From NCBI RefSeq assembly GCF_000244895.1, contig NZ_CM001441.1, forward strand, positions 620,001 through 684,000: DNA of 64,000 nt, in the 5' to 3' direction. The position numbers and the translations under genes were made by a program. This stretch comes from Desulfosporosinus youngiae DSM 17734 (GTDB lineage Bacteria; Bacillota; Desulfitobacteriia; Desulfitobacteriales; Desulfitobacteriaceae). The notes under the pieces are model-generated. The model saw only the letters and a list, made by a program, of their open reading frames with translations, was not told the origin of the DNA and did no database searches. Positions 27,840 through 57,893 of the stretch are shown here, piece by piece (the first letter of the stretch is position 1; every line of letters begins with the position of its first letter).

Positions 27840-29120
27840 GTGGGTAAACATCGGGTGTTAATCGTAGGCAGCGGCGGGCGGGAACACGCTTTGGCCTGGA
27901 AGCTGGCCCAAAGCCCGGAACTTGAACGTTTATTTGTGGCCCCCGGGAATGCAGGGACTGCGCTGTGGAATGTCCCGATTCCTGGTCGGGACATCGCTGG
28001 ATTAGTGGAGTTTGCGCTCAAAGAAAAAATCGATCTGACTCTTGTCGGGCCGGAAGACCCCTTGAGTTTAGGAATTGTCGATGTTTTTCAGGAGGCCGGT
28101 CTGCGGATCTTCGGGCCTGCTCAGGCGGCAGCTCAATTGGAAGGAAGTAAATCCTTTGCTAAAACGATTATGGAAAGTGCAAGGATTCCAACAGCAGAGT
28201 GCCAAGTCTTTGAGAATCCGAATCAGGCGAAAGAGTATATTAATACCATTGGAGCACCCTGTGTTTTAAAGGCTGATGGTCTAGCCGCGGGTAAGGGTGT
28301 TATCGTGGCGATGGACTTGGAAACCGCCCTCCAGGCAGTCGATGAAATCATGGAAGGTGGTTTTGGTTCCGCGGGTAAAAAGCTGCTTATTGAAGAATTT
28401 CTGGAAGGTCAAGAAGTTAGTTTGCTGTGTTTTTCGGATGGAGAAACAGCTTTGCCGATGGTTCCGGTTCAGGACCATAAACGGGCCTTAGATGGGGACC
28501 AGGGGCTCAACACTGGAGGAATGGGTACTTATAGCCCGCCTCCGATTTGGACGACTGAACTTGAAGCAACCGTCATGCGTGACTTCGTCAGTCCAACCTT
28601 GCAGGTTATGAAAGCAAGAGGAACTCCCTTTGTAGGAGTGCTTTTTCTGGGCTTAATGTTAACCGAACGGGGTCCTAAACTTCTGGAATACAATGTTCGG
28701 TTTGGCGATCCCGAAACACAAGTAGTGATGAAACGGCTGAAATCGGATCTCTTGCCAATTCTTTGGGCCTGCACTGAGGGAAGTCTGGATCAGAGCCATT
28801 TGGATTGGAAAGAGGAGGTCGCAGTTTGTGTTGTGATGGCTGCTCAAGGTTATCCATCGGCTTACACAAAAGGGGTCCCGATCCGATTGCCAGTGGAGAC
28901 GGATAATAATGCGGTCATCTTCCATGCCGGAACGGGATTTAGCGAGGGGCAGCTTCTCAGCACCGGCGGTCGGGTATTAGGGATAACCGCTGAAGGACGC
29001 TCTCTTCAAGAAGCTAGGGAAAGGGCTTATGCTCTCGTCAATAAAATCGATTTTCCTAAGGCCCATTTTCGCCGGGATATTGGAATAAAAGGACTTGAGG
29101 AGCCAAAATTACCACTATAA
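27840..29120 (+). CDS. purD: Phosphoribosylamine-glycine ligase
   Basis: A 426-residue ATP-grasp ligase forming GAR. Landmarks: VLIVGSGGREHALAWKL, GPEDPLSLGIVD, LKADGLAAGKGV, and NTGGMGTYSPP with EYNVRFGDPETQ for ATP and metal binding. GTG start behind GATGAGGTGAG. Last gene of the purine operon, followed by a terminator. Confidence 0.97.
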   Translation: MGKHRVLIVGSGGREHALAWKLAQSPELERLFVAPGNAGTALWNVPIPGRDIAGLVEFALKEKIDLTLVGPEDPLSLGIVDVFQEAGLRIFGPAQAAAQLEGSKSFAKTIMESARIPTAECQVFENPNQAKEYINTIGAPCVLKADGLAAGKGVIVAMDLETALQAVDEIMEGGFGSAGKKLLIEEFLEGQEVSLLCFSDGETALPMVPVQDHKRALDGDQGLNTGGMGTYSPPPIWTTELEATVMRDFVSPTLQVMKARGTPFVGVLFLGLMLTERGPKLLEYNVRFGDPETQVVMKRLKSDLLPILWACTEGSLDQSHLDWKEEVAVCVVMAAQGYPSAYTKGVPIRLPVETDNNAVIFHAGTGFSEGQLLSTGGRVLGITAEGRSLQEARERAYALVNKIDFPKAHFRRDIGIKGLEEPKLPL

Positions 29121-47726: not shown

Positions 47727-48566
47727 TTGAGTATTTCATGGTCGACGGTTCAATTGCAACGCTTAAAAGAACTTAACGCATCTTCTGAACAACTGGATAT
47801 GAACTTTACTGAAACATCAAGCCGCGACCGCGCATTCCAAGATGTCGAACATAGCTTAGTTAAGCATGGGAAATCACAGCTTAAAAAATTACGTGATGAG
47901 AAGCGCCGGCCGGCCTTACTTGAGCTTGAAGACGGATTGGCGGAGGCATTACGCCGGCAAGGATTCGTTCAGGTGGTTACACCGACAATTATTTCCAAGA
48001 CTTCATTAGCGAAAATGACGATTTCAGACGATCACCCGCTATTCTCACAAGTCTTTTGGTTAGATGCCAAACGCTGCCTGCGGCCGATGCTGGCACCGAA
48101 TCTTTATACTCTGTGGAGAGATCTCGCACGCCTTTGGGATAAACCGATTCGTATATTTGAAATCGGAACCTGCTATCGGAAAGAGTCACAGGGTGCGCAG
48201 CATCTGAATGAATTTACGATGCTTAACCTGACAGAACTAGGTACTCCCCTTGAAGAGCGGCATCAACGGCTGGAAGAAATGGCCCGCTGGGTTATGGAGG
48301 CAGCAGGAATTGAAGGGTATGGGCTTCTTACCGAATCCTCTGTGGTCTATGGAGATACTGTAGATGTAATGAAAGGTGAGCTCGAGCTGGGATCAGGTGC
48401 TATGGGGCCTCATTTTTTGGACGAGAAGTGGGGGATTTTTGATCCTTGGGTCGGCATAGGTTTTGGACTGGAAAGGCTTCTTATGATTCGGGAAGGTACA
48501 CAGAATGTTCAGAGCATGGCCAGAAGCTTAACCTATCTGGATGGGGTTAGGTTAAATATAAAATAA
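47727..48566 (+). CDS. pylSc: Pyrrolysyl-tRNA synthetase catalytic subunit
   Basis: A 279-residue class II synthetase lacking the N-terminal tRNA-binding domain, which is encoded separately at 57.6 kb as in Desulfitobacterium. Motif 2/3 and pocket elements are PMLAPNLYTLWRDL, FEIGTCYRKESQGAQHLNEFTMLNL, SSVVYGDTVDVM and GIGFGLERLLMI. It charges tRNA-Pyl with pyrrolysine. TTG start eight bases after a perfect AGGAGG. It shares the tRNA transcript. Confidence 0.96.
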   Translation: MSISWSTVQLQRLKELNASSEQLDMNFTETSSRDRAFQDVEHSLVKHGKSQLKKLRDEKRRPALLELEDGLAEALRRQGFVQVVTPTIISKTSLAKMTISDDHPLFSQVFWLDAKRCLRPMLAPNLYTLWRDLARLWDKPIRIFEIGTCYRKESQGAQHLNEFTMLNLTELGTPLEERHQRLEEMARWVMEAAGIEGYGLLTESSVVYGDTVDVMKGELELGSGAMGPHFLDEKWGIFDPWVGIGFGLERLLMIREGTQNVQSMARSLTYLDGVRLNIK

Positions 48567-48955: not shown

Positions 48956-49591
48956 ATGGCCGGCTATGAAGATTTATCGAAAGCAGTATTAAAGGGTGAT
49001 GATGATCAGGTAAAATCTCTAACTAAAAGTTTAATTGATAGCGGAAACGATCTTTTGGAAATTATCAATCAGGGTCTGATTGCTGGGATGGACATAGTTG
49101 GAGCACGCTTTAAAAAGGGGGAAATGTTCGTTCCCGAAGTACTCATGGCAGCTAGAGCGATGTCAGAAGGTATTAATTTAGTTAAACCCCTTATGGCTGA
49201 AACGGATATCCCTACAATAGGTAAAGTGCTGGTTGGCACAGTTAAAGGTGACCTTCATGATATCGGAAAGAACCTGTTAGCTATGATGATGGAGGGTGCC
49301 GGCTTTACAGTCGTTAATTTAGGCGTCGATATTTCACCGGAACAGTTTGTAGAAGCCGCAAAGGAACAAAAAGCTGATATGATCGCTATGTCCGCACTGC
49401 TGACCACTACTATGGTATCAATGAGAGACACCATAGAACTATTTAAAGAAGAGGGTATAAGGGATAAGGTGCGCATTATTATTGGGGGAGCTCCGATTTC
49501 TCAGGAATATGCGGATGAAATTGGTGCCGATGGTTTTGCACCTGATGCCGCTACTGCCTGCGATCTTGCTAAAGGCCTGCTTGCTAAGTAA
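48956..49591 (+). CDS. mttC: Corrinoid methyl-carrier protein, MttC-type
   Basis: A 211-residue corrinoid protein. N-terminal helical cap (about 1-90) is followed by a B12-binding Rossmann domain with GTVKGDLHDIGKNLLAMMMEGAGF (DxHxxG supplies the cobalt-ligating His), SALLTTTM and GGAPISQEYADEIGADGF. It accepts a methyl group from the MttB-bound substrate and passes it to the methyl-THF methyltransferase encoded at 54.6 kb. ATG behind CAAGGAGGT; it is the first gene behind the sigma-54 promoter. Confidence 0.93.
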   Translation: MAGYEDLSKAVLKGDDDQVKSLTKSLIDSGNDLLEIINQGLIAGMDIVGARFKKGEMFVPEVLMAARAMSEGINLVKPLMAETDIPTIGKVLVGTVKGDLHDIGKNLLAMMMEGAGFTVVNLGVDISPEQFVEAAKEQKADMIAMSALLTTTMVSMRDTIELFKEEGIRDKVRIIIGGAPISQEYADEIGADGFAPDAATACDLAKGLLAK

Positions 49592-49651: not shown

Positions 49652-51124
49652 GTGACCATAAGAAATCCTTGGTCTAATAATCCTCAAAAGCATGGCTTTA
49701 GTCTAAGTATGTTCACAGATAATGAATTAAGACAAATTCACTATTCAACGCTGGAAGTCCTCTGGCAGGAAGGGGTGCATATCACTTCTAAAGAGGCCCT
49801 GGATCTTTTCCAGGATGCCGGAGCTATGGTAGACCGCAGTGAATCTGTTGTACGTATTCCTGCACACCTGGTAGAAGATGCCATCAGGTCTGCTCCGAGC
49901 ACCATTACCCTTGCCGGTCGTAATCCAAAGAACGATTGTGTATTGGAGGGCAGCCGGGTAAGCTTCACCACCTTTGGTGCCGGAGTAAAAATTGTTGACC
50001 CCGTAACAGGCGTTTTAAGAAACACAACCAAGGCTGACGTTGCCGGAACAGCCTTAGTTGCCGATTATCTGGATGGAGTCGACGTTTATTCACATGCGGT
50101 TTCAGCCAGAGACTGCCCTAAAGTATCCGTCGATTTACATGAAGCAGAAGCTTTTTTGAGCAATACAAGTAAACATGCTATGCACATTGACCTTACCTCA
50201 GGCGATCATGCCAAAAAATATCTTGAAATGGGTGCAATTATTGCCGGCGGTTGGGATAATCTCAGGAAGCGGCCTGTTTTATCAGCTCTAACCTGCCCGC
50301 AAAGTCCGCTCCAGCTTCATAAAGAGTGCTGTGACATTATCATGGAATTTGCCCGGGCAGGTGTACCGTGCAATATATTGTCAATGGCTATGTCCGGAGC
50401 TACCACACCGGTAACCATTGCCGGTACCCTGGTTGTGCACAATGCCGAAGTTCTCGCAGGGATTACCTTATCCCAGCTCGCCTGCAAGGGTGCGCCGGTA
50501 ATGTATGGTAGTTCTACTACGACCTTTGACCTGCAATATGCTACAGCTCCAGTGGGTTCGCCGGAGCTTGGAATGTGCAGCGCGGGTGTGGCGGCTCTGG
50601 CTCAGTTCTACTTACTTCCCAGCTTCACAGCGGGGACATAGGCAGACAGCAAATTATCCGATGCCCAGGCAGGATATGAAAAAACCATGACGGCTCTGTT
50701 GCCGGCCTTGGCAGGAGTTAACCTGATTTATGGAATGGGAATGCTGGAGTTAGGGGTAACCTTCAGCTATGCCCAACTACTCATCGATAACGAAATAGCA
50801 GAGATGGTAAAACGAGTGGTTCGTGGTGTGGAAATTAACGATGAAACCTTGGCGGTTGATCTGATCAAGCGAGTAGGCGGAGGTAGTGGTAAACACTACT
50901 TGTTGGAAAAACATACTATGGAGTATGTTAAGAAAGAGCAATCCAGAGCAAATCTGTTTGACCGGAAAATGCGCCAAATTTGGGAAGCAGAGACCGGGGG
51001 CAAAGATGCCGGAGAGCGCGCCGCTGAAAGGGCACGGGAAATTCTGAACGAATACAAACCCGAACCGTTGGATAAGGAAGTACAGCAAAAACTCAGAAAT
51101 ATCATCGAAGAGCTAGAAAAATAA
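49652..51124 (+). CDS. mttB: Trimethylamine-type methyltransferase MttB with in-frame amber codon (pyrrolysine)
   Basis: A 490-residue protein if the TAG at 50639-50641 is read as pyrrolysine (residue 330; family position about 334). Both halves are in one frame with no other stop and match MttB on each side: FTAGT before the codon and ADSKLSDAQAGYEKT after it. MttB moves a methyl group from a quaternary or tertiary amine to the corrinoid protein MttC. Presence of the amber codon separates it from glycine-betaine-type non-Pyl MtgB. GTG start behind AAAGGTGGAG. The linked tRNA-Pyl and pylSc make readthrough credible. Confidence 0.94.
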
Positions 51125-51277: not shown

Positions 51278-51341
51278 ATCGTCTTTTAATGGTCTGTTGT
51301 CAGATGGGTTTCTAAAAACGTTTGTCAGGAGGAGATATTTA

Positions 51342-52583
51342 ATGGTTATATTCGGTAAAGTAATGATTTTTATTATCATGGCCTGTTGTTTAGCGGGAGC
51401 TGTTGCGTCAGCTGTCAAAGAGGATTCTGAATTAGGGCAGTCATTTATCAATGGCCTAGAAACCATAGGGACTATTTTTCTGCCTATTGCGGGAATTATG
51501 ATCTCGATTCCCTATTTAACCATCTTTATTGAGAAGGTTTTTGGTTCGATCTATAGTTTTATCGGTGCGGATCTGGCTATAGCGGCAACGACTTTTATCC
51601 CCAGTGATATAGGGGGATATGTTTTGGCCGAGGTTCTCGCCCAATCACCTGAAACTTGGATCATGGCCATGGTGGTAGGCATTATGGCCGCGCCAACAAT
51701 TTTGTATAATATTCCCATTGGCTTAGCCATGTTAGAAAAAGAGGATCACCAATATTTAGCTTTAGGTATGATGTCCGGAATGCTGGCAGTTCCTTTTGGG
51801 GTTCTTGTCACTTGTATGATCCTCTTTTTTTCCCATACTCCGGTTCGGGAAGCTATTTCCACGAATGCAGATGCTACGTATGTATTGACCTTTGGATTAG
51901 TTACTATTTTTATTAACCTTCTGCCTTTAATTATCATCTGTGTCTTATTCGCTTTGGGGCTGAAGCTGATACCTAAAAAGATGATTAAAGGCTTTATGAT
52001 CTATGGAAAGATACTAATGTCAGCCTTAAAACTGGTAGTAGCTTTTGCGATCATAGAATATTTCACCGGAGTATTTTCCAAGGTTTTAGGCGGATGGGGT
52101 TTTGATCCATTTATTGCGGATGAGGAAGAAACCTTCAGGGCCTTGGAAATCACGGGTATTATCGGAATTATGCTGGCGGGAGCATTTCCCATGGTCTATC
52201 TGCTGAAAAAGTATTTGCAGACGCCTTTAACAAAAATAGGGACAAAATTAGGGCTGACTTTCTCCGGCAGTGCCGGACTCTTAGCTGCCTCTGCCAACGT
52301 TTTAGCGATGTTTGCCACAATTAAAGATATGCCTCCCCAGGATAAGGTTAAGTGCATTGCCTACAGCGTTTGTGCAGGTTATCTTTTGGGAGATTATTTG
52401 TCCTTCACCGCTAATTTCCAGCCAACCTTAATCGTGCCTGTTTTCACCGGGCAATTATGTGGGGGGATTATGGGCATTTTTATAGCTGATAAGTTATCAG
52501 TCCCCCAAGCCATCAAACTTGCCGAAGAACATAAAGAAAAGTCCAATACGGGAAATAAAAAGGAATACAGTCCAGGACTGTAA
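51342..52583 (+). CDS. EutH-like ethanolamine/amine permease
   Basis: A 413-residue membrane protein with about eleven hydrophobic segments and EutH-family sequence: PIAGIMISIPYLTIFIEKVFG, TTFIPSDIGGYVLAEVLA, AAPTILYNIPIGLAMLE, CAGYLLGDYLSFTANFQP. EutH brings ethanolamine into cells, but no other eut gene is present. Position between mttB and the sigma-54 activator suggests import of the methylated amine used by MttB. ATG 51342 is eight bases after AGGAGG. Its stop directly abuts the stop of the convergent activator gene. Confidence 0.85.
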   Translation: MVIFGKVMIFIIMACCLAGAVASAVKEDSELGQSFINGLETIGTIFLPIAGIMISIPYLTIFIEKVFGSIYSFIGADLAIAATTFIPSDIGGYVLAEVLAQSPETWIMAMVVGIMAAPTILYNIPIGLAMLEKEDHQYLALGMMSGMLAVPFGVLVTCMILFFSHTPVREAISTNADATYVLTFGLVTIFINLLPLIIICVLFALGLKLIPKKMIKGFMIYGKILMSALKLVVAFAIIEYFTGVFSKVLGGWGFDPFIADEEETFRALEITGIIGIMLAGAFPMVYLLKKYLQTPLTKIGTKLGLTFSGSAGLLAASANVLAMFATIKDMPPQDKVKCIAYSVCAGYLLGDYLSFTANFQPTLIVPVFTGQLCGGIMGIFIADKLSVPQAIKLAEEHKEKSNTGNKKEYSPGL

Positions 52584-55466: not shown

Positions 55467-55563
55467 TATTAGAATTAAACAAAAAGTCGTCACCGATCTC
55501 GAAAGTAAATGAGACAAAAACATAATGAGTATAATCCATCAGACGAAGCAAGGGGGCAGCTAT

Positions 55564-56679
55564 ATGCAGGATCTTAAAATAGACGGGATTCTCGACAAGG
55601 CGAGACAAGAAAATTCCCTTAGCCGTGAGGAAATTCTGAGATTATTAGATATAACCTCAGAAAAGGAATTAGGGGAAGTTTCACAAGCTGCAAGGGAGCT
55701 TCGCGGACGATATTTTCAGAATAAAGTATTTCTTTATGGCTTCGTATATTTTTCGACATACTGTCGTAACGATTGCACCTTTTGTCTCTACCGAAAATCC
55801 AACCGAAATTATCCTCGTTATAGAAAAAACAGTGAAGAAATTATGACGACCGCTCACTGTTTGGTGAATTCCGGAGTGCATCTTTTAGACCTGACCATGG
55901 GCGAGGACCCCCTGTATTATCATTCAATCCATGGATTCAATGATCTTTTAAAAATGGTTAAAGTGCTAAAAGGAGAAACCCAAACCCCGATAATGATTTC
56001 ACCTGGGATCGTTTCTCCGGAAGTTCTTTGGAAATTCAAAGAAGCCGGTGCCGACTGGTATGCATGTTACCAGGAAACCCACAATAAGACGCTTTATAAT
56101 CAATTACGCATCGAGCAGAGTTATGAGGAACGGATGAATCGGAAGATCCTGGCAAAAGAAATGGGATACTTAATCGAAGAAGGATTGCTAACCGGAGTCG
56201 GTGATACCAATGAAGATATCGCAGACTCTATTCTGACTATGGCAAGCATCGGAGCGGACCAAGTTCGGGTCATGAGCTTTGTTCCTCAGGAAAATACACC
56301 CCTGGCAAATTGGAAAACCAATTCTCACTTTCGGGAGTTGTTGATCATTGCTGTCATGCGTTTGGTCATGCCCGAGCGTTTGATTCCCGCGTCTCTGGAT
56401 GTGGATGGTTTAAAGGGGTTGGAACAGCGGCTGAATTCCGGAGCCAACGTCATCACATCAATTATTCCACCTTCAGCAGGTATGGCCGGAGTATCTCAAA
56501 GTACTCTGGATATCGATGACGGAAACCGGTCGATCGAGAAGGTGCTCCCTGTTCTGAAGGCCAACAGGTTAGAAGCTGCAACAACTGAAGAATATCAAGC
56601 CTGGGTGAACGTCCGTAAAACCCACAGTATTCCTCCGGAGAAAGAAATCCCTATCCTCAGAGCTTACATAAGGAGCTGA
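55564..56679 (+). CDS. pylB: 3-methylornithine synthase (radical SAM)
   Basis: A 371-residue radical SAM enzyme that converts lysine to 3-methylornithine, the first step of pyrrolysine synthesis. The cluster motif CRNDCTFC (CX3CX2C) lies near residue 62 after YGFVYFST. PylB elements are LLDLTMGEDPLYY, MISPGIVSPEVL, GVGDTNEDIADSI, and PASLDVDGLKGLEQRLNSGANVITSIIPP. ATG 55564 follows AAGGGGG; the earlier in-frame ATG lacks a site. Six bases separate it from pylD, so no pylC lies between them. Confidence 0.93.
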   Translation: MQDLKIDGILDKARQENSLSREEILRLLDITSEKELGEVSQAARELRGRYFQNKVFLYGFVYFSTYCRNDCTFCLYRKSNRNYPRYRKNSEEIMTTAHCLVNSGVHLLDLTMGEDPLYYHSIHGFNDLLKMVKVLKGETQTPIMISPGIVSPEVLWKFKEAGADWYACYQETHNKTLYNQLRIEQSYEERMNRKILAKEMGYLIEEGLLTGVGDTNEDIADSILTMASIGADQVRVMSFVPQENTPLANWKTNSHFRELLIIAVMRLVMPERLIPASLDVDGLKGLEQRLNSGANVITSIIPPSAGMAGVSQSTLDIDDGNRSIEKVLPVLKANRLEAATTEEYQAWVNVRKTHSIPPEKEIPILRAYIRS

Positions 56680-56685
56680 ATTGCT

Positions 56686-57543
56686 ATGACTCGCCTAAAG
56701 GAGAGGGACATCGATTTAATCGCACAGCAAATAAAAGAGTACAACGAAGAGTTGGTGAGAAAGACCGGTCATACACTTTCCGAAATCGCCGCGCATGCTA
56801 TTGGTATGCACTATACAGACGTTCCTAATCCAGGGCCTGTTGCGGTGTTGCCCATGACCTGCGGACAGGGAGTGATCGGCGGGTTTTCTGAAACTGTCGC
56901 AGGGATATTAAGTTTCCTTGGAATGAGTACCTTTGTTCCTGCCTTCCCGGATGTTAAAGGTTTTGCTGAAACCTTGGAGCGTAAGGCAGAAATCGTCTTT
57001 ATGGCTGATGATGACCGCTTTATCGCAGCGCACCTGAAGACAGGGTATTGCTCAGATAATAGCCGGGCAACCGGGAAGGGATATGCAGCAGCTCTCGATT
57101 ACTTGACAGGAGGGCTTAAGGACCGGAGTGTGCTGATATTGGGCGCGGGTCCGGTGGGACGCTCTGCAGCCGTTTCTGTTCTCGGCTTCGGAGGAAAAAT
57201 CGCTGTTTATGACAAGGACTCAAAAGTCAGTGAAAAACTGGCTCAGGACATTTTAAGTCAGAGCGGACAATATGTTCACCTTGAGAAGGACTTTGATTCG
57301 GCTATAAAAAGTCATCGGGCAATCGTGGATGCATGCCCCGAAGCGGAGTTTATAACCCGGGACTATCTTTATTCTGATACTTTTATTTCAGCCCCGGGAG
57401 TACCCTTAGGTGTCCATTCCGATGCCCTAGACCAAATCTCCTCACGTTTGATTCATGATCCGCTTCAATTGGGAGTAGCGACTATGCTTTATGAGCTTTT
57501 AAATCGAATAGAGGCTAAAAGGAACTTATCGAATTCTATATAG
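56686..57543 (+). CDS. pylD: Pyrrolysine biosynthesis dehydrogenase
   Basis: A 285-residue NAD-dependent enzyme that oxidises lysyl-3-methylornithine so the pyrroline ring can close. The C-terminal Rossmann domain has VLILGAGPVGRSAAVSVLGFGGKIAVYD; the N-terminal half has GPVAVLPMTCGQGVIGGFSETVAGI and VFMADDDRFIAAH, typical PylD. ATG behind AAGGAGCTG. It ends with TAG, which is notable in a pyrrolysine-decoding organism; further TAG codons follow in frame at 57616 and 57628. Confidence 0.92.
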   Translation: MTRLKERDIDLIAQQIKEYNEELVRKTGHTLSEIAAHAIGMHYTDVPNPGPVAVLPMTCGQGVIGGFSETVAGILSFLGMSTFVPAFPDVKGFAETLERKAEIVFMADDDRFIAAHLKTGYCSDNSRATGKGYAAALDYLTGGLKDRSVLILGAGPVGRSAAVSVLGFGGKIAVYDKDSKVSEKLAQDILSQSGQYVHLEKDFDSAIKSHRAIVDACPEAEFITRDYLYSDTFISAPGVPLGVHSDALDQISSRLIHDPLQLGVATMLYELLNRIEAKRNLSNSI

Positions 57544-57566: not shown

Positions 57567-57893
57567 GTGTCTCAAGCAGCCCTTAAAGAAAAGAAGCGGT
57601 ATTATCGCAAAAATGTAGATTTCTGTAATTTAGTAGAGAAAATTAAACTATGGCCCTCTCGCAGCGGCAAATTGCATGGAATCAAGTCTTTGACTCGAAG
57701 AGGGGATATGGCGGAGATTGTAACCCACTGCAACCGGCGTTTTATTATCTATAATTCGAGGCACGGCCGAGCTGCCCGCTGGATGAGGAATAAATGGTTT
57801 ATAAGTGTCTGTCCCATATGTAAGGTTCCGGAATGGAAGCTCCAGAAGTATTCATCGACAGTGATGAATCAACATTATGGAGCGCATCTATAA
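57567..57893 (+). CDS. pylSn: Pyrrolysyl-tRNA synthetase N-terminal tRNA-binding subunit
   Basis: A 108-residue basic protein equal to the N-terminal domain of archaeal PylS, encoded separately in bacteria. It holds KKRYYRKNVDFCNLVEKIKLWPSRSG, FIIYNSRHGRAARWMRNKWF and two Cys in CPICK, which with His residues form the zinc site. It grips the compact tRNA-Pyl and helps PylSc. GTG behind AAGGAGGTGG, the last pyl gene. Confidence 0.93.
   Translation: MSQAALKEKKRYYRKNVDFCNLVEKIKLWPSRSGKLHGIKSLTRRGDMAEIVTHCNRRFIIYNSRHGRAARWMRNKWFISVCPICKVPEWKLQKYSSTVMNQHYGAHL

Follow-up and report, generated by a model that had tools for sequence, protein, structure and literature searches.

Remnant of a probably deleted pylC in a pyrrolysine operon of Desulfosporosinus youngiae, with two intact pylC genes elsewhere on the chromosome

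PylC joins L-lysine and 3-methylornithine, the second step in the synthesis of pyrrolysine, the 22nd amino acid. The same two substrates are given for the enzyme in a study (PMC3941956) whose passages on pyl genes describe an isolated extra pylC accompanied by pylT beside two clusters in Methanomassiliicoccus luminyensis, an arrangement that resembles the one reported here for Desulfosporosinus youngiae DSM 17734. The M. luminyensis copies are presented as a lineage-specific duplication, and those passages describe no cluster losing pylC (PMC3941956); in D. youngiae, unlike in M. luminyensis, the PylC that was very probably lost and the surviving ones belong to different clades, and a scar is visible. 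Scattered pyl genes are likewise described for Ca. Methanomethylophilus alvus, in which pylB lies about 0.7 Mb from pylTSCD; however, according to the same passages, its genes are single-copy and there is no redundancy (PMC3941956). Archaea with two PylRS/tRNAPyl pairs, treated in another report (PMC9071458), resemble D. youngiae in that a single genome carries two or more pyl systems and genes have disappeared or changed place following duplication, but they possess two synthetases, whereas D. youngiae has one pylSc together with three copies each of pylSn, pylB and pylD. An extra isolated pylC and gene loss after duplication are already known, and the merit of the present case lies in a visible scar together with a series of decaying sets; a literature search on PylC, pyrrolysine and Desulfosporosinus returned, judged by title or abstract opening, no paper on such a loss.

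The window, meaning the whole stretch of DNA analysed (64,000 nucleotides, positions 620001-684000), is part of a single contig of 5,660,978 bases that constitutes the whole genome. Its pyl locus (Table 1) includes the only match above cut-off in the genome to the model of the catalytic synthetase part (TIGR02367), and an mttB gene in which the two open reading frames on either side of the TAG match positions 1-313 and 330-469 of TIGR02369, the gene being read through the TAG. The mttC-type gene preceding it equals in length the 211-aa gene of locus L094 of a relative, G021. A gene for a EutH-type (ethanolamine) transporter (51297-52580) also lies within this trimethylamine/pyl locus, with a similar open reading frame in G021, and is followed, before pylB, by a sigma-54-type regulator gene and then a methyltransferase gene.

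Table 1. Features of the pyl locus in the window (positions count from the first base of the window).
Feature	Position	Strand	Basis and remarks
pylT, tRNA-Pyl, CUA anticodon	47618..47689	+	ARAGORN; one of two genome copies
pylSc, catalytic part of pyrrolysyl-tRNA synthetase	47727..48566	+	TIGR02367, 412.7 bits; in-frame translation
mttC-type corrinoid protein gene	48956..49591	+	named by similarity and position
mttB, trimethylamine methyltransferase	49652..51124	+	in-frame TAG at 50639-50641, the pyrrolysine codon
pylB, 3-methylornithine synthase	55525..56679	+	NCBIfam TIGR03910, 542 bits (cut-off 348); stop TGA 56677-56679
Putative pylC remnant (39 bases from the 3' end of the lost gene), with the pylD ribosome-binding site	56647..56685	+	comparison with G009, contig C30
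Gap from pylB stop to pylD start, six bases ATTGCT	56680..56685	+	read from the sequence
pylD, pyrrolysine synthase (3-methylornithyl-lysine dehydrogenase)	56686..57543	+	NCBIfam TIGR03911, 341 bits (cut-off 150); start ATG 56686
pylSn, small part of pyrrolysyl-tRNA synthetase	57567..57893	+	TIGR03912, 137 bits; one of three genome copies

An earlier note on this DNA had placed pylB and pylD six bases apart and had found no PylC-type ligase encoded in the window. Both observations hold: the coordinates give a gap of that length; a search of the whole genome with the PylC model TIGR03909 (cut-off 248 bits) gave nine matches, none of them within 620001-684000; and a six-frame profile search of the window built on 38 PylC proteins, with filters off, gave a best E of 1.5, which also rules out pylC as an overlooked reading frame there. 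With pylC absent, the cluster in the window falls short of a complete bacterial pyrrolysine system. The gap in the pathway that the note implied, on the other hand, does not exist at the level of the genome, since the full-genome search for pylC, which had been named beforehand as the check able to overturn it, found two normal genes on the same chromosome, each more than 200 bits above the family cut-off. Overall, the note's reading is partly supported; the apparent hole in the pathway is closed, and a single operon should not be read as the whole pathway.

One of the two genes, hereafter the stand-alone pylC, lies at 2,897,559-2,898,665 (479.1 bits) and the other at 1,670,205-1,671,308 (463.5 bits), both being open frames without stops. 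Their products align over nearly the full length with the solved PylC 4ffl (E 4e-54 and 2e-56; alignments to 4ffl_A, residues 3-372 to 4-360), and, of 78 near-invariant columns (those conserved in no fewer than 94% of 36 further PylCs), 77 are kept by the stand-alone protein (one V to I) and all 78 by the 1.67-Mb protein. Counting matches above the model cut-offs, the genome holds three copies each of pylB, pylD and pylSn, two of pylC and one of pylSc, and a whole-genome pattern search found exactly two pylT; all parts of a complete pyrrolysine system (pylT, pylSc, pylSn, pylB, pylC, pylD and a TAG-containing methylamine methyltransferase) are therein. The set at 1.67 Mb (1,669,117-1,672,553) is a complete pylB-C-D-Sn with all four genes intact, and, as read from the open reading frames, a run of microcompartment-type genes lies downstream of it. 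A third set, at 4.388-4.390 Mb (L024), is pylB-D-Sn without pylC and is located in a methyltransferase locus with a second gene that reads as mttB-like and interrupted by TAG. Of the three pylSn, the two outside the window (1.67 and 4.39 Mb) have no adjacent synthetase partner of their own, the genome having a single pylSc. Upstream of the stand-alone pylC are the second pylT, at 2.896 Mb and one base different from that of the window, and an AraC-type regulator gene.

The history of the window operon is indicated by a relative in the genus, G009, whose contig C30 (L091) carries an operon of this type that is intact and has pylC in place. Protein identities between the two operons are 87% for PylB, 90% for PylD and 95% for PylSn, and the DNA aligns at 89.9% identity on both flanks with 1,157 bases of G009 skipped; as pylC is in place in this matching operon, about 1.16 kb appears to have been deleted from the window. 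At the junction, the 39 bases listed as the remnant in Table 1 agree with the end of G009 pylC at 35 positions, a score reached by 13 of 200,000 random placements in 20 kb of the window, the site included, which is about what is expected from redrawing the site itself. In G009 the pylC frame (L091:9898-11112) meets no stop codon ahead of pylD and reads past the pylD start, so that part of the remnant also holds the pylD start signal; the stretch upstream of that signal is short, at 21 bases, of which 17 match, and one of the 19,979 offsets in 20 kb, the site among them, reaches this value. When the window was compared with G009 PylC by tblastn, the best PylC-like stretch (56646-56714; 65% over 23 residues, E 3e-5) was this same scar, extending partly into pylD where the G009 pylC frame overruns it, and weaker matches (28119-28490, with E from 5e-4 to 0.013) probably reflect the PurD named in the earlier note. 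Moreover, about the last 11 residues of the window PylB (EIPILRAYIRS) are encoded by the 3' end of pylC, out of frame. The pylB-pylD junction thus carries pylC sequence, as would be left in an operon from which pylC was deleted.

Phylogenetic trees separate this operon from the pylC genes that survive in the genome. In the PylB tree, the window copy groups with those of G009, G021 (L094), G011, G031 and G032 (100/98), and in the PylD tree with those of G009, G031 and G032 (100/100). The PylCs of these last three genomes form one clade, here called alpha (100/100). The stand-alone PylC clusters with its counterparts from G021 and G011 (100/100), within beta, a second clade of 20 members (100/99) that includes the PylC of the 1.67-Mb set. 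G031 and G032, which belong to the same family and are probably Desulfitobacterium, have the alpha-type operons closest to that of the window among those from other genera; these have the alpha pylB, pylD and pylSn in the order seen in the window, and differ from it in that pylC is still present (B-C-D-Sn). Window PylB and PylD are thus of the alpha type, whereas the two PylCs that survive are beta; the PylC lost would be the alpha one, with its role in the window pathway most likely taken over in trans by a beta enzyme.

We therefore consider it very probable that the window operon was once pylB-C-D-Sn, that it underwent a pylC deletion of about 1.16 kb, and that PylC is supplied in trans from either of the intact distant genes. 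Such a deletion would have taken out pylC between its start region and roughly the last 39 bases, sparing pylB and the pylD start signal, and 3-methylornithyl-lysine would still be made with PylC from the 1.67-Mb set or from the stand-alone gene. With alpha PylB and PylD and only beta PylCs available, the pathway would be a mosaic, which would be tolerated because the substrates of PylC (L-lysine and 3-methylornithine) are small and diffusible, so that its gene can work from any place in the genome.

A different role for the locus would follow if its pylB-pylD pair were a decaying relic, the 1.67-Mb set carrying out all synthesis and the window locus mattering only for pylT, pylSc and mttB. 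The intact pylB, pylC, pylD and pylSn of that set agree with this, as does the fact that pylC is already gone from the window. However, pylB, pylD and pylSn of the window are intact, with dN/dS of 0.21, 0.18 and 0.04 against G009 (pairwise averages, which include the time before the deletion), and the locus harbours the only pylSc and one of the two pylT, next to the TAG-containing mttB; we regard a relic as unlikely. On the same kind of pairwise average, the stand-alone pylC gives 0.17 against G021 and 0.24 against G011, and these values indicate that it and the window pylB and pylD are all under constraint.

A survey of the genus bears on the direction of the change. Among 29 genomes, counting matches above cut-off, PylB was found in 21, PylC in 20 and PylD in 19. 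There are 35 pylB copies, 25 of which stand in pylB-C-D (in L124 with the pylC match in two pieces) and three in pylB-D without pylC (the window, L024 and L095); the rest lie beside a broken pylC and pylD (one, L120), in B-C-Sn (one, L093), in B-Sn (two, L094 and L096), alone (one, L117) or at contig ends (two, L102 and L129). The 125-bp pylB-pylD gap of the third set (L024) encodes a PylC C-terminus (41 residues, 59% identical), and in G007 the corresponding gap, which belongs to a more distantly related pyl type, contains the 3' end of that type's pylC, as compared with the intact L100; together with the window junction, all three pylB-pylD pairs of the genus that are without pylC have a remnant of it. 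In G018, the only pylB above cut-off adjoins a broken pylC and pylD, and intact pylD and pylC are on another contig. Across 82 genomes of the class, PylD was above cut-off in 28 and PylC in 30, and each of the 28 genomes with PylD also has PylC.

These data make it highly improbable that pylC was never part of the window operon, with B-D-Sn being original and G009 having gained the gene by insertion. Gene order in the family is indeed fluid, as illustrated by pylB-pylSn in G021 and G011 and by the pylD-pylC-pylSn of G018 apart from pylB, but G031 and G032, outside the genus, have B-C-D-Sn with a PylC in the G009 clade, most pylB copies of the genus are in the B-C-D order, and pylC 3' sequence is present in every pair that is without the gene.

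For the missing pylC, the earlier note had offered a copy elsewhere, a replacement ligase or dependence on supplied precursor. The first has proved correct, and neither of the others is needed with two intact pylC in the chromosome. A strain relying on supplied 3-methylornithine or pyrrolysine is scarcely credible and was rejected: no point in its favour was found, and intact pylB, pylC and pylD, hence all three steps, are encoded in the genome. Substitution by another ATP-grasp enzyme has next to no probability, as the PylC model gave, beyond the two true PylCs that make it unnecessary, only seven weak ATP-grasp matches of 19-45 bits, all far under the cut-off.

Returning to the deleted operon and its presumed helpers, the stand-alone pylC appears to have parted from the window locus at a tRNA gene. 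Its counterpart lies directly before pylT in G021 and G011, and in G021 pylSc then follows. From pylT onward the window shows 89% DNA identity to G021, whereas the stretch of G021 before pylT matches the 2.90-Mb locus and not the window, which places a breakpoint at pylT or in its immediate vicinity; a pylT is present on either side, with the one-base difference noted above. Further, upstream of the stand-alone pylC there are short stretches that match the terminal part of the broken pylD of the relatives. We infer the course of the separation from these comparisons.

The driver of these losses would be redundancy: with up to three pyl sets per genome, single genes may decay while one good copy of each stays, as suggested by the pattern across the 29 genomes. 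A fuller picture, which we advance tentatively and at slightly less than even likelihood, is that of a mosaic pathway in which alpha PylB and PylD, encoded beside the only pylSc, work with a trans-acting beta PylC whose stand-alone gene broke away at the tRNA gene from the locus with pylT and pylSc, leaving a pylT copy on each side, in a genus that readily sheds pylC from redundant sets, each deletion sparing pylB and the pylD start signal. Across the genus, pyl genes are distributed among multiple sets in partial decay, which can make up for one another's losses; the loss of pylC seen here is in itself an unremarkable biological event that has left a clean fossil of the deletion. Scars of this kind allow gene loss under redundancy to be followed as a testable series in a natural system of genetic-code expansion.

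Other features of the pyl genes in the genus were observed. The AraC-type regulator encoded before the stand-alone pylC (L022:8552-9370) is a shortened PocR-AraC protein, the full form of which has 418 residues in L094; the regulators of D. youngiae (G000, 273 residues) and of G011 (335 residues; L096:8941-9948) are missing different stretches of the front half. Since the PocR sensor part has been lost from the former (273 against 418 residues), regulation of the stand-alone pylC may be altered. G009 contains three distinct pyl systems, on contigs C30, C28 and C23 (L091, L114, L115 and L138), each with pylT, pylB, pylC, pylD, pylSn and its own pylSc (407, 375 and 307 bits). A third, divergent pyl type that has a tRNA-Pyl sequence of its own was recognized in L095, L097, L100, L109, L111, L113, L115 and L133, scoring in the genus about 455 bits for PylB, 375 for PylC and 160 for PylD; it occurs without a matching pylSc in G004, G006, G007 and G012, the G006 copy lying near a contig end.
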